From Siphonodentalium dalli (Eukaryota; Mollusca; Scaphopoda; Gadilida; Siphonodentaliidae), in contig CP136069.1 in NCBI GenBank assembly GCA_032622095.1, positions 100,840,278-100,904,277 on the forward strand: a stretch of 64,000 bases of DNA, in the 5' to 3' direction. Both the position numbers and the translations under genes were made by a program. This document shows, piece after piece, positions 49,900 through 64,000 of the stretch. The notes beneath the pieces are model-generated. The model saw only the letters and a program-made list of their open reading frames with translations. It ran no database searches and had not been told where the DNA came from. The stretch's first letter is position 1; every line of letters starts with the position of its first letter.

Positions 49900-50379
49900 C
49901 TACTTATTAACATCGTTGCAGTCAGGACAATTTTTGTATGTACATTTGGGATTCAGTTGATATGAAGATAGCCTATTTCGAGAGTAATCATTTTTGAACA
50001 TTGTTCGTGTTGGAAGACGTTTTAGTTTGTCGTCCAGGGAATTCCACATCTTCGGAAGATAGTGTTCTGGTAAGTTTTCCGAGAAGACACTTTTCGGTGT
50101 CCCAGATTTGAGCATACCATCTTGTCGCGTGTCATTTTGGGAACTTGTGAAGAATTTTTCAAATGAATTTGGTAACTGGTCGTGAAACCAGTCATGCACA
50201 ATGAGATTTGAATGCAGGGTATAGATATCATTAAATTTTAAAATGTCATTTGTTTTAAATAGCGGATCTGTGTGACTATTGTATTTTTTATTGTTTATTA
50301 TGCGCATGGATTGTTTTTGCAGTTTGAATACTCTATCACTTTTATTCGAATTTCCCCATATATGTATAGCATACATCAA
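49900..50379 (-). pseudogene. second LINE: C-terminal domain
   Basis: Contains AIHIWGN, MRIINNKKYNSHTDPLFK and LKFNDIYTLHSNL, then a cysteine-rich end (CTYKNCPDC), all typical for the region after the reverse transcriptase in this group. It is separated from the upstream frame by a break near 50380-50416. Confidence 0.75.
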
Positions 50380-50416
50380 ATGACTGAACTATTGCATAGT
50401 ATAACGATTTGAGTGC

Positions 50417-50878
50417 TTAGCGTGGTAAGAAGTGTTTAACTTTATTCAGACTATAATTTGCACTGGCAATTCTAGCGCACACATGATTTATGTGATGATG
50501 AAATTTCAAATTTTCATCCAATTTCACACCTAAATAAGTTAATGATTGTTCGTGTCTCGTGTTACCAACCTGTGTAATTTCGGTGTTGTTGATCCTAAGT
50601 GATAGATTATCGCCCCTATGCGAGTTGTTCATAGGATGAAAGAGAATATATTTACATTTTGAAGGATTTATTTGTATATAATTTGCACAACACCATTCGA
50701 AGAATTTTGCTATTTCGGTATTCATATACGCTTTTAAGTCGCGTGTGTTATTACCATATGTATATAGGGTTGTATCGTCAGCAAATGAAAGTAGCGAGAG
50801 GGTGGTTGCATCTTTCATGTCGTTAACGTAAATTAGAAAAAGAAGAGGTCCAAAAATCACCCCTGGGGCACTCCACAA
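50417..50878 (-). pseudogene. second LINE: reverse transcriptase palm to thumb
   Basis: GPLLFLIYVNDM, LSFADDTTLYTYGN (catalytic FADD), NPSKCKYILFH and LTYLGVKLDENLKFHHHI are all present. The upstream GVPQG is in another frame because one base is missing near 50868. Upstream fingers are in the next frame. Confidence 0.8.
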
Positions 50879-51101
50879 CTAACATCTAAAGTTTCAGAGA
50901 GTGTATTTTTAAAGCATACACATTGTTGTCTATTAACTAAATAGCTACGAAACCAGTCGTTTGTAAGACCTATAATTCCATAGTGGGATAGTTTAGATAA
51001 GAGTATTTCATGATTTATAGAGTCAAATGCTTTCGAAAAATCAACGAATAATGCTAATGTTGAATCTCTAGATATTTGGTCATTATTTTGTGCAACTGAA
51101 C

Positions 51102-52310
51102 TTAGGAGTTGAATTGTTGGATGGTAGGTTGAGTGTTTGCTACGAAAACCATACTGGTGTTCGTATAATATATCATTGTCGTTAAGTCTCTGAGTCTGAT
51201 GGCCATTATTTTTTCCATAATTTTGGAAAATATAGGAAGTATACTTATCGGTCGATAATTATTGAAATTAGAATTATCGCCCTTTTTAAAGACTGGAATA
51301 ACTTTCGCCAGTTTCATGTCATCTGGAAATTTCCCCACTTTGAATGAACGATTAATTATGTGGACCAGTGGTTGTGCTACTTCATTAATTGTTACTTTCA
51401 TAAGTTTGCTGGAAATATTATTTAAATCAAGAGTATGTTTTGGTTTTATTTTGAATGCTGTTAGGATTACTTCTTGCTCATTTGTAGGGAGAAGTTTAAA
51501 AATATGTGGATAATGGCCCGTAAGATAATCTACATGTGAGTTTTCAGTATGAGGTATCGAGTTGACTATGTTGTGTCCAACATTAACAAAGAATGAATTA
51601 AAATGGGATGCAATCTCTTTTGGGTCAGATATGCGTTCGCCGTTGCTGATGAATTCGTTTGGTGGTATGAATGATGATTTATTCTTGCCAATTATACTTC
51701 TAAGGATTTTCCAAGTGGCTTTCATGTTGCCCCTGTTTTCATTGAAAATATTCTTATAGTAAAGCGATTTACTCTTCCTGATGACTCTATTATATATATT
51801 GTAGAATGTTTTATATTTTTTTATGTTTAGATCGGTTGGATTTTTTAGTTTCGTTCTATATAGTTTGTTTTTTGTATGCGAAGACGTTAGGACTCCAGAA
51901 GTGATCCAAGGATTTTGTTTTATGAATCTTTTAGGGATGCGAGTATTAGTTACTGGGAAGGCTGTATGGAATACATCAGTATACGTTGTAATAAATCTGT
52001 TGTATGATTCGTTTGGACACTGGCAATTGTATACATCATCAAACGATGATGTGGTAAGAATTTGTTTGAACAAGTTCATATTTTTTTGTGAACAAACTCG
52101 CCGATCACGCGTTGAGCTCATAAGTGGCGCCGGTGATTTAGTCCCATGCATGTAGAAACATGCCAAATGATAAGAAACATCGGTAATTATTATACCCGAT
52201 TCGTTATCATTCAAAACGTTATTTGAGAAAATGTTGTCTATTAGAGTAGCTGAGAATTCAGTTATTCTAGTAGGTCTGGTAATGGATGGTAAAAACCCTT
52301 CTGAGAACAT
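51102..52310 (-). pseudogene. second LINE: end of endonuclease region, linker and reverse transcriptase fingers
   Basis: PTRITEFSATLIDNIFSN marks the end of the endonuclease; RFIKQNPWITSGVL, YYKNIF and TWKILRSIIGK form the linker; LAKVIPVFKKGDNSNFNNYRPISILPIFSKIMEKIM is the start of the fingers (described in pieces: KVIPVFKKGD, NYRPISILP). The frame breaks near 51110-51180, where FSKAFD-like sequence would follow. Confidence 0.8.
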
Positions 52311-52539
52311 TGTATCGACGAATTTTTCAGTTTTGTTATGTGTGCCGAACTTTAATAAATCTATATTGAAATCACCGAATAAATAGCAATTTTTTGTGCT
52401 CGTTGTTTACAATACCTAATATGTTTTCAATCGACGATTGGAATACGTCTAAGTCAGCTAAGGGCGCGGTATTTGGTCTGTAGACACAACCGATGATGTA
52501 AGAATTTTTTTTTTCGGGAAATATTTCCAGGAACAGAGA

Positions 52540-53037
52540 TTAAAATTTGTGAGGATTAAAAATTGTGAGATCGTCTCTAATTTTGTATGGTAAATTGTCA
52601 TTAACATAAACTGCCACGCCCCCTCTTCCGTCGTCGGTCTCTGTTCTCGTCTTATATAGGAGAGGGTGGTAACCTTCTAGAGAGAAATCTAGACCAGTTG
52701 TGTGTATTTTGAATACTTCTGTTAGTCCTATTATATCGAATATGTTGTTTTCTTGTTGAAGTTCACAGAGAAAGTTATTTAATTTATCCCAGTTAGCACT
52801 TAAACTCCGACAATTGAGGTTTAAGATGTTTGGCCCTTTATTGTTAGCGTGTTCGTATTTGGTTTTAAATTCTGAAGGAGATAGATATTGACAATTTTGA
52901 TCATGAAGATCAAATGGTGAGTCGGGAGATATTTCGTCTGGATCATTTGTATGTTTTAGAAGTTCCTCATATATTGTAGAAAAATCCATGGCTGGGTTCT
53001 CCTTGACCTCATCAATGCTTATTCTATGTGATGCCAT
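52540..53037 (-). pseudogene. second LINE: N-terminus and start of AP-type endonuclease
   Basis: Starts with an ATG at 53037 (MASHRISIDEVKENP). LNLNCRSLSANWDKL and IIGLTEVF (catalytic Glu) belong to the apurinic-type endonuclease, as does GRGGVAVYV. A frameshift near 52545 and others before 52310 disrupt the rest (CLFGDFNID-like part at 52340-52390). Confidence 0.8.
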
Positions 53038-53205
53038 TATTATAACATGTCACAATGAAAACATAACTGAGCGATGAACTAAGTAACAATTAAATAATGA
53101 ACAAGACTATTCACATTATCATGTATGATGTGCATGTATACGTTGGCGTATGTCATGTTAACCGCTGGCTAATTGTATTCTGTATTTACATTGAAGCCTA
53201 TTAAG

Positions 53206-53849
53206 CAAACGCCTTTGAAAAGTCGAGTATGGCTACGTCAACCTACTTTCCGTTGTCGTATTTTTGAAGTATGTCGTGGAGTGTGACTTCCAAGTGTGTC
53301 TCGCATGAGTATCCAGTTCTGAAGCCATGATTTAGTGATGTTAGGATGTTATTCTCCTCAAGATGTTTCATAATGTGGCGACATATTATATGTTACAGAA
53401 TTTTACAAGGGACTGATGTTAGGGATACCGGTCTTTAGTTTTCAGCCAGGTGCCTGTCTCCTTTTTTTTGTAGATAATTGACACGTTTGCCTTCAGCCAA
53501 TCTTGGGGGAGTTTGCCGGTGTCTAGGGAGAGCTTGAATATAAGTCTGAGAGCTGGTGCTAGTTCCTTTGCGCATGTCTTGAGTACCCGGTTGGGTATGC
53601 CGTCGGGTCCTGAGGCTTTGTTGGTCTTGAGTCTGTGTAGGAGAACTTCTATGCCTTTTATATCCAGCTCGGTGTTGCTGATGCTGTCATACTTCTTATC
53701 CGGTGGTGTTATATCCGTCTGATTCAGTGGTTCTTCCTTGGTGAATACGGACTGGAATTGTCGGATGAGTACTTCGGCTTTGCCTTTGGCGTCATCTATT
53801 AGGGTTCCTCCATCTTTTAGAGGTGACACTCCGATGTTATCGTGTCGTC
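53206..53849 (-). pseudogene. first LINE: start of reverse transcriptase
   Basis: From 53849 down: DNIGVSPLKDGGTL, FQSVFTKEEPLNQ, KASGPDGIPNRVLK, LPQDWLKANVSIIYKKK, then in another frame NHGFRTGYSCETHLE and VAILDFSKAF, which ends at the border of the second LINE. The break near 53415-53450 and a stop show decay. Continues at 49409 and, upstream, at 55562. Confidence 0.85.
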
Positions 53850-55555
53850 TATGGCAAGCCGTTTTCACATTTTCGATTGATTTGGACGAATTGGACTTAA
53901 GTCAAAATACCACATAATTGTGAATTCGGCGAGGAATTGTACTTAAGTCCAAATGAATTACACTTAAGTCCAAATACAGATATTTTCATCTATTTGGACT
54001 TAAGTCCAATTCCTCGCCGAATTCACAATTATGTAGTATTTGGACTTAAGTCCAATTCATCTGTATAAGAAACATCCCCATCAGATATTAAGCAGGTCTG
54101 GTTTTGCTCATAGGGCGGAGTTGTGGGAAAATGGCCGTTTACATGTGGGTCTAATTCTTGTTGATCTTGTTAATTGTTACCTTTTTCAACATATATAATG
54201 AATCAGCTAGATGTGGACGAGATCATATCAACAATAGCCCGTGTTGTAAGAAGTTCGGAACGATTTTTAACGTATGATGATGTCTGTCTGTCAAAACATT
54301 ACATCGACTGAGTTGACATCGCTTGAGGTGGCCTCACTGACCAGGCTTCACTGATCAGTCAAAGCATTCTTTGATGTCTGCATTTTATTAGTATGGTGGG
54401 TAAATGTCCGGTGGGTAATTGTCCGGGTGGGGAAATGTCCGTATACCGATAATAATGTTACCAGAGTCCGACCAGGTAGATAAAATACCACCCCTTGCTC
54501 TTTATAATTTTAACCTGATAAAAAAGTTACAACTTATGTACAGGGTCCACACTCGATCGAGGCTGCATGCACTAATGGAATTATGACTGCTAATTTGTTT
54601 ATATATTTGACCAAATTTATAGAAATAGTGGGCTAAAGCGTATGTTAACACTGAGTCTGAGAAATATATAATGTAAATTATTTTTGCAATTTTCTTCTGA
54701 TCAAGCCAATTGATGCAAAGAAGTCTCTGTAGAATAGATTGACAAAGTTAACTGAGGCTGTGCTTCACGCAGTCATTACAATAGCAATAGAAGGGGAGTC
54801 ACTCTAATCTATTGTTTTGGCATAATTCGACTTTCGAGTACACCCTTATTACATTGAGTTTGAAAACCGAGCAAATTATACAAATAAGACACTTAGTAAA
54901 TGCAATAAACGAAACTGCGTGTAGCATACACTACATGCTGTCAAATGACAATTGAATCAAGTCGTGAATTAATTTTCATTCATGCATGCATTTAGCATTT
55001 ATTAAGATCCAATTCGGATTCGAAACATTTTCAATCTCGGCATGCCGAAAACAAGCCACGTGGCAAAGGGGACGTACGGAGTCAAGCTGTACGCTCATGC
55101 TATGATTTGTAAGTCCCGCGTAGCATAGGGGACTGAACTCTGTCTTGCAGTTTGGTACGGAATTAGTCTTGATTGACAGCCGTCTTGTGTATGCTTGGAG
55201 TCAGGAATGCCCTGGTTAGTACGGAGTTTGACTGTCAATCAAAACTTGCAGGAATATACCATTACAAAGAAGGGGACTATCGTTTCAAACCAGATGAATT
55301 GGACTTAAGTCCAAATGAATTGGACTTAAGTCCAAATCAATTCGCTAATTGGACTTAAGTCCAATTCATTTGGACTTAAGTCCAATTAATTGCACTTAAG
55401 TCCAATTATTGGACTTAAGTCCAAATAATTGGACTTAAGTCCAAATAATTGGACTTAAGTCCAATAATTGGACTTAATTCCAAATAATTGGACTTAAGTC
55501 CAAATCATTGGACTTAAGTTCAAATCAATCAAAAATGTGAAAACGGCTTGCCATA
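53850..55555. mobile_element. 1.7-kb DNA element with GGACTTAAGTCC palindrome arrays, 6-bp target duplication
   Basis: Ends TATGGCAAGCCGTTTTCACA and its complement; GTCGTC flanks both sides (53844-53849, 55556-55561). Deleting the element and one GTCGTC restores the LINE frame (KARR then HDNIG). Arrays of TTGGACTTAAGTCCAA lie inside each end: about five at 53895-54050, about eleven at 55300-55530. The left array is itself in a hairpin (GCGAGGAATTG / CAATTCCTCGC). The roughly 1.2 kb between has no recognised gene. Confidence 0.9.
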
Positions 55556-55561
55556 GTCGTC

Positions 55562-57292
55562 GGGCCTTTATGTATTGCCAAAATGGTATGGTGGTGTTGT
55601 TCTTCAGCCCCTCGGTAATTTGGGTGTTGACAAAGTCTCATTCGGCTTTTCTTAATTCCCGTTTACACTCTCATTGTATCTGCCTGTAGTTTTCCCATTT
55701 CCCTGATCTTTTCGCTCTGTTGTATATTCTTCTCTTCTTTCTTAATAGGCGCTTCGTGTGTTTGTTAACCCAGGGAGTATTGTGTTTAGGTTTGATCATC
55801 TTTGATGGTATATGTTTTCCACGATCTCCTGGATTCCGCCTTTCAGTGTGTCCCACATGGTGCTGACGTAAGGATTCGTCAGTAGCCGAAGGCTTTCCCC
55901 TAGGATTGCCACTTCGTCCGCCACGGCTCCCCAATCCGCTTTCCCGTACATGTATATTTTGCGGGTAGGTGTGTCTTGGTGGTGAGCTTTCATGTCGAAG
56001 TCCGTCACTACCATGGCATGATCTGATATGCCTGGAATGTTGTTTGGTGTCTTCGCCAGTGATGGGGTTTGAGGTGAAGACTAAGTCGAGGAGGTGCTTT
56101 TCTCTTGTTGGTTTGTCGTGGATCTGTGTTAGTCCAGCTCTTGATGTAGCGTGAAGCATTTTTTCTTGGACTTCCATCTCTGGTGCTGGTTTTGTCACCA
56201 TCAGCCGTTTCCAATCCACGTTAGGGCAGTTGAAGTCGCCGCATAGGATGGTCTGTTTATTGTCTCCAGCTGCCAGTTTGATTGACTTCTCTAGCTCATT
56301 TATGTGTTTGTCCTCGCGGTGGGGCGTGTAGAAGGATCCTATCAGGATGTCTTTATTCGATCGTGCCTTTATCTTTACCCACATTATTTCGCAGTTGGTG
56401 ATGAGTCGTGGCTGCTCCGTTGATATGAGGCTTTTGTGTGCCAGGACGAAGACTCCTCCCCTACTGATTCTCTGTCGTTCCGATATACGTTGTAGTTTTC
56501 GGGGGAAATTTCACTTGATCTGATGTGCCCGTCTGTTGGTTTTTTGCCTGGTTTCACTCCGATCAGCCAAGATTCTGAGCCGCAGATGATGTCCGGTTTT
56601 ACATATTCTATGGTTGCTGCGAGTTCTGCCCTTTTATCCCTGATGCTCCGACAGTTCACAGTGAGGATTCTCAGGTTCCGTTTCGGTGGTAAATCGAAGG
56701 CGCTTGTATGGTTTTGTCTTGGTTCCCCTGTGGTGTTTGCTTTTGATGTGTTGTTTCGCGGTGTTGGTGTGCTCGTCTTCACTGGGCTAAAGGTCGATGG
56801 TGACTCAACAGACTCGATGGTGGAGTTTGGCTGCTCGTAGATGTTTGACGAGAGTTCGTAGCCATGGAAGGTGAATGAGTCCACGTTCATGCTGTCACAT
56901 TTGCAGCATATCCACGCTACACTTGATCTTTCGAGATCTCTAATATCTTGTGTGCAGTTCCCGAGGCAAGAGTGGTGATGCCAGATACTGCAGTGGTCAC
57001 AACAGACGCCACCCACGGACCATGTTACAGGTTTTTCGCAGAATCCGCATGGGTAGATATCCTTTGCCCTGGGTCCTGGTTGGGTTTCAATGTCACCGGA
57101 GAGTATTATCACCAGTAGGATCACGGACATTGGGTTTGCAGCTACAGGCAAATTCATTGGTCCTTTCCTGAAGGTCGCCAGTTTGCTGTTCAAGAGGCAT
57201 GTTGTCAGTTGCTGGTGGTACCATGATGTTGGTGTAAACTGCGCTTTTGCAGCTTGTAGTAGGACTAGTATCGCGACGTATGAGATGAGCAT
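55562..57292 (-). pseudogene. first LINE: ORF2 start with signal-like N-terminus, 2A-like motif, PHD finger and endonuclease
   Basis: The ATG at 57292 starts a hydrophobic segment (MLISYVAILVLLQAAKAQ). A second hydrophobic stretch leads into DIETQPGP at residues 67-74, a variant of the 2A motif. A PHD-like zinc finger follows (CGFCEKP, CCDHC, WHHHSCLG, WICCKC, about residues 82-132). The endonuclease starts at LRILTVNCRSIRDK and contains ICGSESWL and LCGDFNCPNVDW. The frame changes near 56400-56480 and twice later, and TGA codons replace Trp near 55640-55670, so it is dead. The element at 53850 interrupts its end. Confidence 0.85.
57071..57094 (-). other. 2A-like motif DIETQPGP
   Basis: The 2A consensus is D-x-E-x-N-P-G-P, which makes the ribosome skip a peptide bond before the last Pro. 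Here the Asn codon is CAA (Gln), which would be expected to impair skipping. GDIETNPGP-like sequences at the N-terminus of non-LTR retrotransposon proteins are known from marine invertebrates. Confidence 0.7.
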
Positions 57293-57456: not shown

Positions 57457-58014
57457 TCAGCTATCCGATGTAACCATGTTTCTGTTAGAAGCTTCTGGGG
57501 GTGATTCCGTCCACATACAATGAATAATTGTAGTATCTACGAATTCCCTTCTTGTTTGAGAACTTCTGCATCTGGATTTATTGAAGTGTTTCACAGAATA
57601 TGCTGGTACTTCCAGGATGGTAAGTTTACACCCACGGAATTTCGAGATGATGGTTTTCACAGTGTTAAGTTTTTGAGCGATGTCAGAAATTCTCAGCTCA
57701 GCATTTGGATGTAGTTTTGTGAATTTCTTACCTTTGGTTTTGTCAGTCAAATCGCACGTGCCAGGCCATATATAGAACCACACCTTCCCTTTGTAGTGTT
57801 TCGCTATCGTGGCTATGTGTGTCTCCAGTCAGAAGATTGCGTCATCGGTTGTGTACCCCGACGTCGATTTCCACACAAATGATTTTTCTGTGCGAGATCG
57901 GATGTAGTTTTGAAGATAATTTCCCTTGCTGTCAGAGATTATATAGGGAACCCTTGTCGGCTCTTCTTGGATTTGTATTCTATTCACGACGTCTTGCCCC
58001 ATTTTACTTTCCAA
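57457..58014 (-). pseudogene. first LINE: ORF1-like protein with esterase-like (SGNH) region, one in-frame stop
   Basis: From 58014: VPYIISDSKGNYLQNYI is a plausible SGNH block I (DS-K-G). FVWKSTSGYTTDDAIF is followed by a TGA in the Trp position at about 57829, and the same frame continues to FYIWPGTCDLTDK and a C-terminal part. CR1/L2-type ORF1 proteins are known to carry such esterase-like domains. It lies 165 bp upstream of ORF2, in the same orientation, which supports membership of this LINE. Catalytic residues were not verified. Confidence 0.6.
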
Positions 58015-58061
58015 TCAACGTTGGGTAAACTTTCCAATCAACAAATGTCATCAGTAGTAAT

Positions 58062-58277
58062 GGTGGGCACTATGGCCCAGTACCCCCCAGACATGGGCAC
58101 TATGGCCCAGTACCCCCCAGACATGGGCACTATGGCCCAGTACCCCCCAGACATGGGCACTATGGCCCATGGGCCATAGTGCCCATGTCTGGGGGGTACT
58201 GGGCCATAGTGCCCATGTCTGGGGGGTACTGGGCCATAGTGCCCATGTCTGGGGGGTACTGGGCCATAGTTCCCACC
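58062..58277. repeat. perfect palindrome made of 30-bp tandem repeats
   Basis: Three and a half units of GGGCACTATGGCCCAGTACC (30 bp each) are followed, after the centre at 58169/58170, by the same number in reverse complement. Because the units read the same on both strands, both strands encode repeats of MGTMAQYPPD; these are not genes. It sits between the LINE and the virus-like element. Confidence 0.95.
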
Positions 58278-58422
58278 CTGAGGATAGATGTTCCTGTCAT
58301 TGATGTGACATTTCTGATCGAAAAAATGAAAATGGACTTAGAATTATTTTTTTTCAAAAGGAAAATCTCACTTTGGAAAATATCAATTAGCAATCAAGAG
58401 TTTTTCTTTTCGAATATTTGGT

Positions 58423-58438
58423 GGCCCTGAAAAGGGCC
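58423..58438 (-). terminator. histone-type mRNA 3' stem-loop (gene 58458-58922)
   Basis: On the minus strand the sequence is AACGGCCCTTTTCAGGGCCACC: a 6-bp stem and 4-base loop with the flanks of the metazoan histone stem-loop. It begins 19 bases after the stop codon. A purine-rich GAAAAGAAAAACTC follows about 13 bases later, where a histone downstream element would be. Confidence 0.85.
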
Positions 58439-58457
58439 GTTTTATTTTTGTTATAGT

Positions 58458-58922
58458 TTAGAATCCGCCACATTGAACTTCTTTGTTCGCCAAAACTTCA
58501 ATTGATTTGTCTCCTCGCCTCATCCATATTTCGCATTCACAATAATGCTCGTGGCAAACGTGTGGGATCCACACTAGAGTTATTGATGACTTGAATCTTG
58601 GTGTTGATTTGTAGCCGCCTTTGGTAGCATCAAACATGACGATAGGTCGCTGTATAACAGTCGCCGCTAATTCAACCATCAATCTTGATTCAGCCAAAAG
58701 TGGTGTGCGCCGTAAATCTTGTGCCGACGCACCAAGTTCGTCACTCTCTGCGTAGTACAGGTCAACTGCCGCATCTCTCAGAATCATCCATCCATCGGTC
58801 GTCCCGTAAACCCCGAGGCTGAGTGCTCTCCAAAACAGCGATATTTCTTCACCGTACACTGCTTTACAGTATACCCCACCGGCCATTATCTCGTCAAGAT
58901 CTGTTATGTTTACAGCAGTCAT
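58458..58922 (-). CDS. OTU-like protein, catalytic Cys apparently replaced
   Basis: The start at 58922 follows CATTCAAAG, the same context as the paralogous start at 60529; an in-frame ATG lies at 58997. The product has 154 residues. GEEISLFWRALSLGVYG resembles the OTU motif G-D-G-N-C-L-F-R-A-L-S, with Ser where Cys is expected and one extra residue. MILRDAAVDLYYAE, ELAATVIQRPIVMFDA and ITLVWIPHVCHEHY (the His position near the end) fit the rest of the fold. If real, it would be a catalytically dead ubiquitin-binding or capsid-type OTU-like protein. Divergent to 59546; histone-type stem-loop at its end. Confidence 0.55.
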   Translation of the reverse strand: MTAVNITDLDEIMAGGVYCKAVYGEEISLFWRALSLGVYGTTDGWMILRDAAVDLYYAESDELGASAQDLRRTPLLAESRLMVELAATVIQRPIVMFDATKGGYKSTPRFKSSITLVWIPHVCHEHYCECEIWMRRGDKSIEVLANKEVQCGGF

Positions 58923-58929
58923 CTTTGAA

Positions 58930-59545
58930 TGTAGAATAAGTCTGAAGATCCGTCTTGAACATATATCACGATTGCGCGGGCGGTAGAGAAAGCACATGTC
59001 GCATTGACGTTAAAATGACAAATGCTCCCTGACGTTGTGTTTCTTTTCAGTGCATTATCTGTTAGTTTCACCATTTCGATATGATATAGATTAAATTCAT
59101 GATAGTATATGCAATTAATTAAGATATTTTAACATATGAATTCATCTTCGTTCATAAACGATGACCAAGTAAAGTTATCAATTGTAATGATGAAGAAAAA
59201 TGTTCAGTATGTTTTCTTGTGTTCAGTTTTATGTATAAAATATGTACATTTCCAAAACCAAAAACTAGAAAAACATTCCATATTTGCCTAACGAGGTAAC
59301 AAATATATCAATCATGTGTACCAAATAATAGATAATGATCTAACGAAATAAAAAACATTTGTTTGATCGCTATGCAATAATGATCAAGAAAAATATGAAT
59401 GCTGATCCGTCTCTGAAAAAACACAACGCCAGGAAACATTTGTCAATTTTAACGTCAATGCGACATGTGATTTCATTGACGCCCGTGTCAAATGTATAAA
59501 AATATTTTCGAATTTGATCAACGTTACATTGCATTGCTATCAAAG
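58930..59545. promoter_or_regulatory. bidirectional promoter, copy 1
   Basis: Contains inverted copies of a ~55-bp module (AAACACAACGTCAGG, CATTTGTCA, TTTTAACGTCAATGCGACAT): minus copy at about 58990-59050, plus copy at about 59412-59470. On the plus side TATAAAAA (59495-59502) lies about 50 bases before the ATG; on the minus side TGATATATGTT occupies the matching place. AACGTCA and CATGTG are CRE-half and E-box-like, an inference only. The same ~560 bp recurs at 60540-61100. Confidence 0.75.
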
Positions 59546-60034
59546 ATGGATCCGTTAACAGAATTTCTTCAGAGTGAGATATACAGTAATCCTGTTGTAC
59601 AGAATACATATGCGGCACCACAGTCAACAGGCCAAGCTAATACGACAATGACTATAGGTGGTGATACACTCATTTTAAAAGCGATTTTAGATGAACTGAG
59701 ATGTCTTCGCAGGGATATTGACGTGAAAACACAAGTAACGCATCAAGAAGTAAAAGTGAATCTTCGTTTCGTTGCAGAAGAGATAGATATACCAATCAGG
59801 GTTCATGATGTTCAGAGATCGAAAGAACAGAAACAGATCAAAAAAGAAAAAATATTGGCGGCGAAAGAAAAAGAACCTAAAAGTATCATGAAGCCTTCTA
59901 CTGAGACAAAAGTCAGATTTCGTCTTCCTTGTAAAGAATCTAAAGATACAGAGAAAAGTGATGAATTCGCAAAAGCTATTGGTTCTCATGGGAAAGATAT
60001 GTCAAGATATAAGAAAAACACAAAACGATGTTAA
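59546..60034 (+). CDS. unknown basic protein, 162 residues
   Basis: The start at 59546 (MDPLTEFLQSE) was chosen because the ATG at 59492 overlaps the TATA box. The order is: a short acidic start, a Gln/Asn/Thr-rich linker, a helical segment (LILKAILDELRCLRRDIDVK) and a long Lys/Glu-rich tail (SKEQKQIKKEKILAAKEKE, ending KKNTKRC). There is no match to a family I know. The tail could bind DNA or be coiled-coil. It is followed after 22 bases by a histone-type stem-loop. Confidence 0.75.
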   Translation: MDPLTEFLQSEIYSNPVVQNTYAAPQSTGQANTTMTIGGDTLILKAILDELRCLRRDIDVKTQVTHQEVKVNLRFVAEEIDIPIRVHDVQRSKEQKQIKKEKILAAKEKEPKSIMKPSTETKVRFRLPCKESKDTEKSDEFAKAIGSHGKDMSRYKKNTKRC

Positions 60035-60056
60035 AGTCAGATGATAATTTTAAAAC

Positions 60057-60072
60057 GGCCCTTTTCAGGGCC
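60057..60072 (+). terminator. histone-type mRNA 3' stem-loop (gene 59546-60034)
   Basis: AAACGGCCCTTTTCAGGGCC with CACACA downstream. CCCAAAAGGTTACTCTTTCA starts about 10 bases later and is almost identical in the second plus-strand copy at 61808, suggesting a shared processing element. Confidence 0.9.
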
Positions 60073-60284
60073 ACACACATTTCCCAAAAGGTTACTCTTT
60101 CATTGCTGAAAAAATCAAAAACACGATTGTTCAATTTATATTTTATTCAACAACAAATATTTGCAAGTATATTTTGTTTTAAATTATTCGTGGCGTGATT
60201 TTTTCAAAACAAAACATAGGGTACAAAGAACATTATTAGTTCTTAAGCAATGCTAAAAGTTTTTCTTTTTGAAAAAATTGGTTG

Positions 60285-60300
60285 GTCCTGAAAAGGACCG
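60285..60300 (-). terminator. histone-type stem-loop with covarying stem pair (gene 60341-60529, distal)
   Basis: Minus strand: ACGGTCCTTTTCAGGACCAA. The third stem pair is U:A instead of C:G, so the helix is kept. An AAAAAGAAAAAC purine run follows, as at 58423. Confidence 0.8.
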
Positions 60301-60312
60301 TTTTTGTTTTTG

Positions 60313-60328
60313 GCCCTGAAAAGGGCCG
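60313..60328 (-). terminator. histone-type stem-loop (gene 60341-60529, proximal)
   Basis: Minus strand: AAACGGCCCTTTTCAGGGCC, starting 12 bases after the stop codon. The duplicated stem-loop is unusual; the variant copy lies 12 bases further on. An AATAAA lies further down the same strand, near 60140. Confidence 0.85.
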
Positions 60329-60340
60329 TTTTGTATGGCA

Positions 60341-60529
60341 TCAAAGTTCACGCCACGATTTTCTTTTGAGACTTTTGCTTTTGTTCCAACGCTGTTGTTT
60401 TTTGCATATTTGCATAACCAGTTTTGCACTGGCGGTTACTTCTTTTGCGTGTCCGGCCCGCATTATCTGGGGTGTTAGCCCTATCGTTCCTCTTAGTATA
60501 GACATCAACGGTTCGGGGGTTTCGGACAT
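60341..60529 (-). CDS. unknown small protein, 62 residues
   Basis: The start at 60529 sits in the same CATTCAAAGATG context as the start at 58922; a longer frame from 60557 in another register lacks it. The sequence is MSETPEPLMSILRG..., with a helix-like middle (KEVTASAKLVMQICKK) and a basic end (KSKSLKRKSWREL). I do not recognise it. It is unrelated to the OTU-like protein although the promoter and leader are copies. Confidence 0.6.
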   Translation of the reverse strand: MSETPEPLMSILRGTIGLTPQIMRAGHAKEVTASAKLVMQICKKQQRWNKSKSLKRKSWREL

Positions 60530-60539
60530 CTTTGAATGC

Positions 60540-61425
60540 AGAATAAAAATTGTTCACGGCCGTGTTTGAACATATATCACGATTGCGCGGGCGGTAGAGA
60601 AATCACATGTCACGTTGGCATTAAAAATGACAAATGTTTCCGGGCGTTGTGTTTCTTTACAGTGCATTATCTGTTAGTTTTACTATTTCGATATGTTATA
60701 GATTAAATTCATGATAGTATATGCAATTAATTAAGATGTTTTAACATATGAATTCATCTTCGTTCATAAACGATGACCAAGTAAAGTTATCAATTGTAAT
60801 GATGAAGAAAAATGTTCAGTATGTTTCTTGTGTTCAGTTTTTATGTATAAAATATGTACAATTCCAAAACCAAAAACTAGAAAAACATTCCATATTTGCC
60901 TAACGAGGTAATAAATATATCAATCATGTGTACCAAATAATAGATAATGATCTAACGAAATTAAAAACATTTGTTTGATCGCTATGCAATAATGATCAAG
61001 AAAAATATGCATGTTGATCCGGTTCTGAAAAAACACAACGTCAGGAAATATTTGTCAATTTTAACGCCAAAGTATTATGTGATTTCATTGACGCCCGTGT
61101 AACAATCTTGTGTTCAGTTTTATGTATAAAATATGTACAATTCCAAAAACAAAAACTAGAAAAACATTCCATATTTGCCTAACGAGGTAATAAATATATC
61201 AATCATGTGTACCAAATAATAGATAATGATCTAACGAAATTAAAAACATTTGTTTGATCGCTATGCAATAATGATCAAGAAAAATATGCATGTTGATCCG
61301 GTTCTGAAAAAACACAACGTCAGGAAATATTTGTCAATTTTAACGCCAACGCGACATGTGATTTCATTGACGCCCGTGTCAAATGTATAAAAATATTTTC
61401 ACTTTTTCAGTGAACTTCATTCATT
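60540..61425. promoter_or_regulatory. bidirectional promoter, copy 2, with an internal tandem duplication
   Basis: A near copy of 58930-59545, with about 280 bp (60825-61100) repeated at 61105-61385. The plus-strand module therefore occurs twice (about 61027-61085 and 61311-61370); only the second retains TATAAAAA (61386-61393) before the ATG at 61426. The first is broken (AAAGTATTATGTG instead of the GCGACATGTG form). Confidence 0.75.
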
Positions 61426-61722
61426 ATGCCGTCGTTAAAGAAATTTATCAAGAAGTTATGGAGGAAGAGAGATTCAGAGGAGACGAAAATAAGAACATAT
61501 AGGAAATGGCAGGATTCTCCTGAACAAAAGGTGGTACAGAAACAGATGCTAAGAGATTTTCTGGCTCGGCGACGACCATCGCCTGAAGTATGCGATCAAG
61601 CAATCAAGAATCAAGAATCAAGCAATCTTGATCTCGTGGAGATCTTGTCACAGATCTCGAAGAAAGATCTGTGCAATGCAGCAATTGACAGCTTCGCTCA
61701 GGCTGCTGCGGCGCACAGATAA
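61426..61722 (+). CDS. unknown basic protein, 98 residues, amphipathic N-terminus
   Basis: Begins MPSLKKFIKKLWRKRDSEET, which could form a positively charged amphipathic helix; the middle is basic (QMLRDFLARRRPSPE) and the end is a helical acidic-to-Ala-rich segment (LDLVEILSQISKK, FAQAAAAHR). The N-terminus would suit membrane or nucleic-acid contact; no family is recognised. TATA box 33 bases upstream; histone-type stem-loop 85 bases downstream. Confidence 0.7.
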   Translation: MPSLKKFIKKLWRKRDSEETKIRTYRKWQDSPEQKVVQKQMLRDFLARRRPSPEVCDQAIKNQESSNLDLVEILSQISKKDLCNAAIDSFAQAAAAHR

Positions 61723-61807
61723 AATCCTACTTGGTCTGTGACAATTAATCCCAACGGGATATATCCTGATTTGGCAGAATTTTTATGAATTCTGGAAAAG
61801 AAAAAAC

Positions 61808-61823
61808 GGCCCTTTTCAGGGCC
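61808..61823 (+). terminator. histone-type mRNA 3' stem-loop (gene 61426-61722)
   Basis: AAACGGCCCTTTTCAGGGCC followed by ACCCA, an exact match to the consensus flank. CCCCAAAAGGTTACTCTTTC follows as at 60057. Confidence 0.9.
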
Positions 61824-61884
61824 ACCCACATTCCCCAAAAGGTTACTCTTTCATAGCTGAAAAAAACAAAACACGATTGTTCAA

Positions 61885-61912: not shown

Positions 61913-62515
61913 TCAAATGTTTGTATCGATTCGTTTATCTGTTTTTGGAATGTAGAATGGTCTCAGCTTCTTTTTCTTGGAAGTTTTCTTGGAATTTTCA
62001 AAATCTGGATTTTTATCTTCAGATTTGTTCTGTGAATCATTCGTAGGATCAACAGGTCGGGGTTGTTTGAAAACATCTGATGTTGTAGACATCTCTTCAG
62101 TTTTGATATCTGCATTTTGTTCTTGTATTGTTACTGCTTGTAGACATTTTTGTATAGTTTTCACATTTTTTTTGTCGCCGAAATCTGTTTTACAATGGAA
62201 GGACCAATGGGATTCTTGTCCGCATTTGTAACAGTAACCATATGGCGGTTTCCAATTTTTATCAGCTTTGTTTTTCTCTTGTTTCTCTTGCCATTGCATT
62301 TTGTTACAAAGTTTAAACAAATTGGCAGAGATCTGTCTCATTTCGACAAGATTATCTTGAATTTTTCTAGTCTGTGGCTGTGTAGATTTTTTTGAATCTT
62401 CTTTATGTAGCTCAATATAGCTCTCTTCAATAACTGCAGGCCTTGGTCTTTTTCTAACAATATCTTCTTCGCTGGCGGCGTCGTCTGAAACAGGTCTTTT
62501 AATTCTCTTAAACAT
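61913..62515 (-). CDS. zinc-knuckle protein sharing its first 32 residues with the PolB protein
   Basis: The first ATG is at 62515 (MFKRIKRPVSDDAASEED); the longer frame begins at a TTG. Residues 1-32 are the same as in the gene at 62711 because the promoter palindrome extends into both. Then follow a charged region, CYKCGQESHWSFHC (C-x2-C-x4-H-x4-C knuckle, nucleic-acid binding), and a Lys/Ser-rich tail with KKTSKKKKLRPF as a possible nuclear signal. About 200 residues. Function unknown, perhaps nucleic-acid packaging or replication. Confidence 0.75.
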   Translation of the reverse strand: MFKRIKRPVSDDAASEEDIVRKRPRPAVIEESYIELHKEDSKKSTQPQTRKIQDNLVEMRQISANLFKLCNKMQWQEKQEKNKADKNWKPPYGYCYKCGQESHWSFHCKTDFGDKKNVKTIQKCLQAVTIQEQNADIKTEEMSTTSDVFKQPRPVDPTNDSQNKSEDKNPDFENSKKTSKKKKLRPFYIPKTDKRIDTNI

Positions 62516-62805
62516 TTTTGTCTTGAGTTTTGTCAGCAAAAAATATTGCGACTGGCTTCTTCGGAGTTGAAGTGTAAAGTGTAGAATTACATCTGCTTTT
62601 ATAGCATTTTCATCGCGAATGCTATAAAAGCAGATGTAATTCTACACTTTACACTTCAACTCCGAAGAAGCCAGTCGCAATATTTTTTGCTGACAAAACT
62701 CAAGACAAAAATGTTTAAGAGAATTAAAAGACCTGTTTCAGACGACGCCGCCAGCGAAGAAGATATTGTTAGAAAAAGACCAAGGCCTGCAGTTATTGAA
62801 GAGAG
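62421..62805. repeat. promoter palindrome, ~188-bp arms with 9-base loop
   Basis: Arms 62421-62608 and 62618-62805 are near-perfect inverted copies, loop TTCATCGCG. They include divergent TATA boxes (CTTTTATA at 62596-62603, TATAAAAG at 62623-62630), leaders, and the first 32 codons of both genes. Confidence 0.95.
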
Positions 62806-64000
62806 CGATATGGAAACTGATAAGGTAGAAAATGAAGAGAGCGATATGGAAACTGATGAGGCAGAAAGTGAAGAGAGCGATATGGAAACTGATAGGGCAG
62901 AAAGTGAAGAGAGCGATATGGAAACTGATGAGGCAGAAAGTGAAGAGAGCGATATGGAAACTGATAGGGCAGAAAGTGAAGAAAGTTCTAGTGATGGGCA
63001 GATTGGACGCGGTCGAAGACAGAATAGAGAAATTGGTGGGAAGAGAAAGAGAAGTCTGGCTAGAGAGCGTGTTGTGTTCAATCCAACAAAATATTTCAAA
63101 ATGGAGCTGAACTCGGAGAAATTTTCCAGAAAATTTAAATCAGCATCACGACAATTTGGTGTGAAATTCGAGAAATTTACAGATCCAATCGAAAACATTC
63201 CAGAGATATTTGAGAAGTTGACAGAAGAATTGAAACAGAAATGTTCAGCAAATGAGAAGACAAGAATCAGAGTTACGATAAATCATCCAGGACTTGATAT
63301 GAGCATTTTCATTCCATTCACAAAAGCCAGTGAATTGAATGGTCGGACACTCATGGATAATATTCAAATGTGGTTCAATCAAATGTAGCCTTTACAATTC
63401 ATGACGGTGCACTCAATTTCGAAATCTTCGTTACAGATATTCCGGAAGGTGGTACACGACACTCACTACATTATGGACCATTTGCAGACAAGAACAAGTT
63501 GACAAAAGTAAAAAGAAGTATTGTCCGGATTGAAAATGCTGATGATGTTATGTGTATGGCAAGATCTATTGTCGTCGGAATGTGTAAGGCAGATAGTGAT
63601 GGATCTGCGTGCTGGTCAAAGATATGGAAAAGAATAAGACAATCAATATACACAGCACAAACAGATGCAGCAAAAAATCTACTCAACCGTGCTGGCATTC
63701 CACACGATACAGTTTGCAGTATCAATGAGTTCCACAAGATTCAAGAAATATTGTATCCAGAATATGTTGTGAAAATTCACAATGAATTTGCTGGCGCTGG
63801 ATTTCTATTTGAACCTGCAGAAATGTGTTCGGATAGCAAATGTGTACACATCTACTACAACAACAATCACTTCGACACCATAACATCAATCAAAGGATTT
63901 CTAGGCACCAGCTACTACTGCGAATCCTGCGACATTGGATTCCATATGCATGGCGATCATCGATGCAGATTTGTTTGTGCATGCTGGTCATTGACACAGT
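62711..64000 (+). pseudogene. PolB-type protein, N-terminal part with one frame break; runs off window
   Basis: The first ATG is at 62711; the frame runs to a TAG at 63386-63388. Residues 1-32 are shared with the divergent gene; five 12-residue repeats (EESDMETD-x-x-E-x; 36-bp units, 62798-62977) follow, then a basic stretch and a folded domain (RIRVTINHPGLDMSIFIPF). The same protein continues in the -1 frame, open from 63361 to the window end: DDVMCMARSIVVGM, QTDAAKNLLNRAGIPHD, NNHFDTITSIKGFLG, and a zinc-binding-like YYCESCD ... HRC ... CAC. These are features of the region before the polymerase in Maverick/adintovirus-type PolB proteins; the Cys-x-x-Arg and His-Phe-Asp parts recall an OTU fold. 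The break is probably a one-base loss near 63368; sequence error is possible. Confidence 0.6.

Follow-up and report, generated by a model that had tools for sequence, protein, structure and literature searches.

Histone-type stem-loops behind four non-histone genes at a candidate virus-like PolB locus in a scaphopod genome

In the histone pathway, SLBP binds a hairpin, and the U7 small nuclear ribonucleoprotein (snRNP) and a nuclease cleave about 5 nucleotides (nt) downstream of it. In animals the presence of this stem-loop accompanies missing polyadenylation and stability linked to S phase, and it is regarded there as the characteristic mark of replication-dependent histone mRNAs (PMC5011920, in the sections available). 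Here we describe five hairpins of this type at four non-histone genes, g1 to g4, in a window of 64,000 nt from the genome of Siphonodentalium dalli (contig CP136069.1, positions 100,840,278 to 100,904,277). The hairpins are clustered at positions 58423-61823 of this window, beside a PolB-like gene, and the locus recalls two described systems. Like the replication-dependent histone genes of animals (features after the same sections of PMC5011920), g1-g4 carry the stem-loop with its flanks at a short distance from the stop, stand in divergent pairs and, in two of the four cases, have no close downstream polyadenylation signal; unlike them, they have no histone domain, sit in a virus-like array and bear a downstream element whose pairing with mammalian U7 does not exceed chance. 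The likeness to Polintons (Mavericks) and adintoviruses lies in the N-terminus of the PolB-like gene product, which keeps a Cys and a His and has relatives in large ENA contigs.

The Rfam Histone3 covariance model (RF00032, gathering score 34 bits) was run on the window. Four of the five hairpins score above gathering, with E-values from 3e-7 to 6e-9:

58397..58443, minus strand: g1 Histone3 stem-loop and downstream element; stem 58423-58438; RF00032 41.8 bits, E 6e-9
60052..60096, plus strand: g2 Histone3 stem-loop and downstream element; stem 60057-60072; RF00032 40.1 bits
60258..60304, minus strand: second g3 stem-loop (GGTCCT/AGGACC) and downstream element; stem 60284-60299; RF00032 37.1 bits
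60307..60332, minus strand: first g3 stem-loop, truncated by its tandem neighbour; stem 60312-60327; RF00032 22.2 bits, below gathering
61803..61847, plus strand: g4 Histone3 stem-loop and downstream element; stem 61808-61823; RF00032 40.2 bits

All five are perfect hairpins with a 6-bp stem and the 4-nt loop TTTC; apart from the second g3 copy, the stem reads GGCCCT/AGGGCC (4/5). A preliminary description of this stretch had proposed five histone-type stem-loops; our analysis confirms this observation, and the covariance scores of the four (37.1-41.8 bits) do not lie at background. Its hairpin coordinates agree with ours for three copies, while the two middle ones begin at 60284 and 60312 and not at 60285 and 60313. 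The stem is preceded by AAAACG in every copy. A conserved element had also been reported after each hairpin; we find an AAAAG... stretch about 12 nt beyond it in four of the five copies, the exception being the hairpin at 60307-60332, where the next hairpin occupies the place of the downstream part. Taken alone, this fifth hairpin proves nothing, its 22.2 bits standing against 21.9 bits for a look-alike on a viral contig.

We compared these scores with two kinds of background. The pattern GGYYCTTTTCAGRRCC, with at most one mismatch allowed, has five matches in the 64 kb, all exact, and none in 100 dinucleotide shuffles. Three DNA patterns searched on viral contigs yielded 3, 2 and 2 loci with the core motif, and none of these seven reaches the Histone3 gathering score: the best two have 21.9 and 21.3 bits and the other five show no match at E up to 0.5. 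Judged by eye from their ORFs (open reading frames), most of these look-alike contigs seem to be of phage origin. Imperfect look-alikes of the histone hairpin core lie between genes at L004:13908-13927 and L005:6628-6647; Histone3 does not match them at E up to 0.5, and they are usable as a negative control. Each of the five copies folds as the expected hairpin, and the numbers of shuffles (of 200) that fold equally well are 0, 1, 2, 2 and 12, the highest belonging to g4. At one of the six stem pairs, four copies have C-G and the remaining one has U-A (1 of 30 cells). This two-sided change gives weak support, because 101 of 500 shuffles also reach it.

The hairpins lie on the coding strand in all five copies, just 3' of the four ORFs:

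58458..58922, minus strand: g1, 154 amino acids (aa), from the ATG at 58922; the ORF is open to an ATG at 58997
59546..60034, plus strand: g2, ORF of 162 aa
60341..60529, minus strand: g3, 62 aa, the weakest ORF call
61426..61722, plus strand: g4, ORF of 98 aa

The distance from stop to hairpin is 19 nt for g1, 22 nt for g2, 13 nt for g3 and 85 nt for g4; the earlier description of hairpins shortly downstream on the coding strand is supported for all four genes. The statement that the products are not histones is likewise supported: g1-g4 have no Pfam match, even with E allowed up to 10, and no histone domain was found in them. In PHROGs nothing was found for g1 and g3, and g2 and g4 match families of unknown function only, at E of at least 0.19. 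In 300 single-base shuffles of the region the longest ORF has 136 aa (mean 72), which g1 and g2 exceed, and a third-longest ORF of at least 98 aa occurs in none of the 300. A protein search with g1 found no relative among 97 candidates, its matches in the PDB are weak and confined to ribosomal L3 (best E 0.051), and its single-sequence structure prediction is poor (pLDDT 33.6). By eye, g1 had been suspected to be an OTU protein; this was dropped, as it has no Pfam match and no similarity to the PolB piece. Together with a CCHC gene and the PolB-like gene, g1-g4 form a compact array of six genes.

Within this array g1-g4 are arranged as two head-to-head pairs, g1/g2 and g3/g4, that share one type of promoter cassette:

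58920..59509: cassette copy 1, the divergent promoter of g1 and g2
60527..61400: cassette copies 2 and 3, the divergent promoter of g3 and g4, partly duplicated in tandem

Copy 1 matches copies 2 and 3 at 92% over 575 columns and 96% over 295 (87-96% ungapped). The similarity sets in with the ATGs of g1 and g3 (58920 and 60527) and stops at 59509 and 61400; these ends lie beyond the TATA boxes, with 36 nt left to the ATG of g2 and 25 nt to that of g4. On the plus strand it restarts in the 3' modules of these two genes at 60052 and 61803, 5 nt before the stems, where 116 columns are 90.5% alike; the hairpins of g1 and g3, on the minus strand, resemble each other over 56 columns (82%). The gene bodies between the cassette and the 3' blocks show no match to each other, in agreement with the earlier claim that the four genes are unrelated. 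Thus, unrelated genes sit in one fixed frame of promoter and stem-loop. Since the copies of both promoter cassette and 3' module are, at least in part, products of duplication, the four stem-loops do not represent four independent gains.

The cassette carries a proximal motif, TTTTAACGTCAATGCGACATGTG, which lies upstream of all four genes in the same orientation with 0, 0, 4 and 2 mismatches at g1, g2, g3 and g4. It stands 76 nt from the ATG of g2, 74 nt from that of g3, 65 nt from that of g4 and, calculated from coordinates, 70 nt from that of g1; the sites in copy 1 are at 58993 (minus) and 59447 (plus). A degraded site with 6 mismatches is found at 61059, in the tandem part, and any other site in the window differs at 7 or more positions. 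TATA boxes at 59495 and 61386, both on the plus strand, precede the ATGs of g2 and g4 by 51 and 40 nt, and the scan that found them gave none for g1 and g3. Elsewhere in the window the only further match to the cassette is one of 26 nt.

The positions of polyadenylation signals differ among these genes. For g2 the first AATAAA or ATTAAA downstream on its own strand comes 485 nt after the first base of the hairpin, and for g4 it comes 915 nt after that base. Three AATAAA sites are relevant on the minus strand:

58441..58446, minus strand: AATAAA between the g1 stop and the g1 hairpin
60142..60147, minus strand: AATAAA, possible back-up signal, 137 nt past the second g3 stem-loop
61892..61897, minus strand: AATAAA of the CCHC gene, immediately after its stop

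The last of these belongs to a gene that converges with g4, with 190 nt between the two stops. The 3' block bearing the g4 hairpin also contains this AATAAA of the CCHC gene, and the block is repeated at 60052-60166.

The CCHC and PolB-like genes form a divergent pair with a promoter of its own:

61913..62515, minus strand: CCHC (zinc-knuckle-like) gene, 200 aa; zf-CCHC E 0.024, below cut-off; no stem-loop
62397..62829: palindromic divergent promoter, 212-nt arms (96%), 9-nt centre
62711..63388, plus strand: PolB-like gene, first reading frame; residues 186-219 match P0003
63361..63999, plus strand: PolB-like gene, second reading frame, with a vOTU-like region; runs past the window end

The two proteins begin with the same 32 residues, because the palindromic promoter also supplies the first codons of both genes. 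The proximal motif of g1-g4 finds no better match in this promoter than one with 9 mismatches of 23. The 3' end is seen for the CCHC gene only; that of the PolB-like gene lies past base 64000.

The name PolB given in the preliminary description draws on an N-terminal piece of 206 residues with relatives (second frame, from 63382) and on published accounts of such domains, and does not extend to a catalytic domain: Pfam shows no domain above cut-off in this piece or its relatives, and the catalytic part is situated beyond the right edge of the window. Among 136 candidates, at E up to 10, the piece has three relatives, P0001 (47%, E 4e-44), P0002 (40%, E 6e-37) and P0003 (35%, E 6e-17), which sit on ENA contigs of 1.1, 6.0 and 3.3 Mb, respectively. 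Residues 186-219 of the first frame also match P0003 (16 of 34 identical, E 4e-9). Because both frames match the same protein, the PolB-like reading frame is broken in this copy, between 63361 and 63388. In the alignment a Cys is present in all four rows and a later His in all three rows that reach its position. An OTU-like protease domain has been described in protein-primed PolB (pPolB), its catalytic Cys and His being kept in polintons and replaced in adenovirids (PMC11071308, a preprint, in the sections available), and such a domain is also described in the accessible portion of PMC11071296. From motif and order, our reading is that the piece in the window represents the vOTU-like N-terminal domain of a polinton-type pPolB; its single-sequence structure prediction is uninformative, with a pLDDT of 34.5. 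A 150-residue PolB piece returned no relative (1 candidate), and the PolB piece has none in the viral contigs. A zinc-motif pattern gave 25 loci on the viral contigs, none of which is taken as a relative since the best phmmer score around the motif is only 7.9 bits (L009). The first PolB-like frame contains in-frame tandem repeats of 36 nt (62789-63021), which encode an acidic segment.

We give somewhat better than even chances to the reading that the window contains part of an integrated virus-like PolB element of the Polinton/adintovirus type with two gene-expression classes, one of which uses the SLBP/U7 histone pathway. This is argued by Histone3 scores above gathering on the coding strand of all four genes, compared with none of the seven core loci on viral contigs, and by a proximal motif of the same orientation and similar spacing at g1-g4 that the CCHC/PolB promoter does not share. 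The lack of a near AATAAA or ATTAAA downstream of g2 and g4, the fitting cassette edges and the compact six-gene array point the same way, as do the relatives of the PolB-like N-terminus and its Cys and His residues, kept as in the vOTU of polinton pPolB.

Under this reading, one class would consist of the CCHC and PolB-like pair on the palindromic promoter, with the CCHC gene ending at an ordinary polyadenylation signal, and the other of g1-g4, two divergent pairs on one type of cassette that would end in histone-type stem-loops. Host SLBP would bind the g1-g4 hairpins, and the U7 snRNP with its nuclease would cut about 5 nt after them. The resulting mRNAs would stay non-polyadenylated and be stable and translated mainly in S phase, so that their products would be made while the host copies its DNA, when the DNA of the element would also be copied. 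Such S-phase coupling through SLBP and U7, already proposed in the preliminary description, would follow naturally from the stem-loops; as a whole, that earlier interpretation is partly supported. g1-g4 would then be a replication-linked and probably late class. More broadly, the locus may belong to a lineage of animal DNA viruses or transposons with one polyadenylated class and one with histone-type ends, the latter expressed only during the production of SLBP by the host cell in S phase and without the poly(A) machinery, its genes being swapped between a fixed promoter and the stem-loop; for and against this wider proposal the balance seems to us even.

Several observations weigh against the two-class element. 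Pairing of the downstream element with the 5' end of mammalian U7, which may differ from the U7 of the host, is not above shuffles in any of the four modules. The minus-strand AATAAA sites just before the g1 hairpin and 137 nt past the second g3 hairpin count against a clean split into two classes on that strand. g3 is short and the weakest of the four genes, and g4, with its 98 aa, is of a length that the longest ORFs of shuffled sequence also reach. The broken PolB-like frame means that this copy may be dead. As opposed to Polintons and adintoviruses, no capsid, integrase or PolB catalytic (palm) domain was found by Pfam among 15 translated pieces, the window not having been scanned in six frames. 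Scans of viral_contigs and genome_contigs (by description, viral and prokaryotic collections) did not reveal a related element at the sensitivity employed. With regard to the U7 result, only part of the histone genes of one bivalve are reported to have a purine-rich element close to the palindrome (PMC6210712, in its available sections).

Some of these points would suit the view that the element acquired flanks of histone genes by recombination within the host genome and their hairpins spread by duplication, and that the hairpins are idle and not needed for expression. The copies are indeed duplicated blocks and not independent, the PolB-like frame is broken and U7 pairing does not exceed chance. 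We nevertheless consider such baggage unlikely, as the stems are perfect in all five copies while the neighbouring sequence varies, one pair having changed on both sides (a weak point, as the shuffles indicate), g2 and g4 have no other near 3' signal, and g1 and g2 have stayed open over 154 and 162 codons, beyond the longest shuffled ORF.

A host origin, with g1-g4 as a lineage-specific cluster of small replication-dependent genes, perhaps expanded from a pair of histone-like genes, next to which the PolB element lies by coincidence, appears to us decidedly improbable. Divergent pairs ending in stem-loops do mirror the layout of animal histone pairs (for the stem-loop and the missing poly(A) tail, see the sections of PMC5011920 used above), and neither Pfam nor PHROGs marks g1-g4 as viral. 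Against this, g1-g4 contain no detectable histone domain, and g4 and the CCHC gene converge on a shared 3' block that holds signals of both and recurs at 60052-60166. That the hairpins act at the DNA level or generically, as terminators, insulators or replication signals, and owe their likeness to the histone hairpin to chance or convergence is very improbable. Viral contigs do carry look-alike core hairpins, some of them between genes, but these stay at or below 21.9 bits or have no match, compared with 37-42 bits here, where the flanks fit too and all five copies lie on the coding strand.

The preferred reading of a two-class virus-like element joins a known type of element with a known RNA signal, a combination we could not find described: in agreement with the preliminary description, a search of open-access papers met no account of histone stem-loops on genes of DNA viruses or transposons. 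In two papers on polinton/adintovirus-type elements the word "histone" is absent; the available portion of PMC11071296 uses it of histone-like proteins ("Histoid"), and that of PMC8363768 has it in the reference list alone. A Histone3 match has been claimed for coronavirus genomes (PMC7786107, in the sections available), and this is likewise a match in a virus, but with 14.7 bits, against a gathering score of 34, and inside a coding region. If the reading is true, a mobile virus-like element can take over the SLBP/U7 pathway in its entirety for unrelated genes. This would give a DNA element a simple means of timing its expression to host DNA synthesis and would let one see, in a natural setting, which components of the signal are sufficient on genes other than those of histones.

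The left end of the element was not found within the window. Of eight ORFs to the left of it, three match retroelement endonuclease or reverse-transcriptase domains in Pfam (one above cut-off) and five match nothing; pieces of non-LTR (long terminal repeat) retroelements lie at 49900-57292. The stem-loops and these retroelement pieces also mark the DNA, from the sequence itself, as probably that of an animal. Just left of g1, at 58049-58290, lies an inverted repeat with 121-nt arms (94%) and 30-nt tandem units, in which all Rfam miRNA matches are below gathering. Next to it, on the minus strand at 57459-58002, is a reading frame that spans about 180 codons and is interrupted by a single stop.

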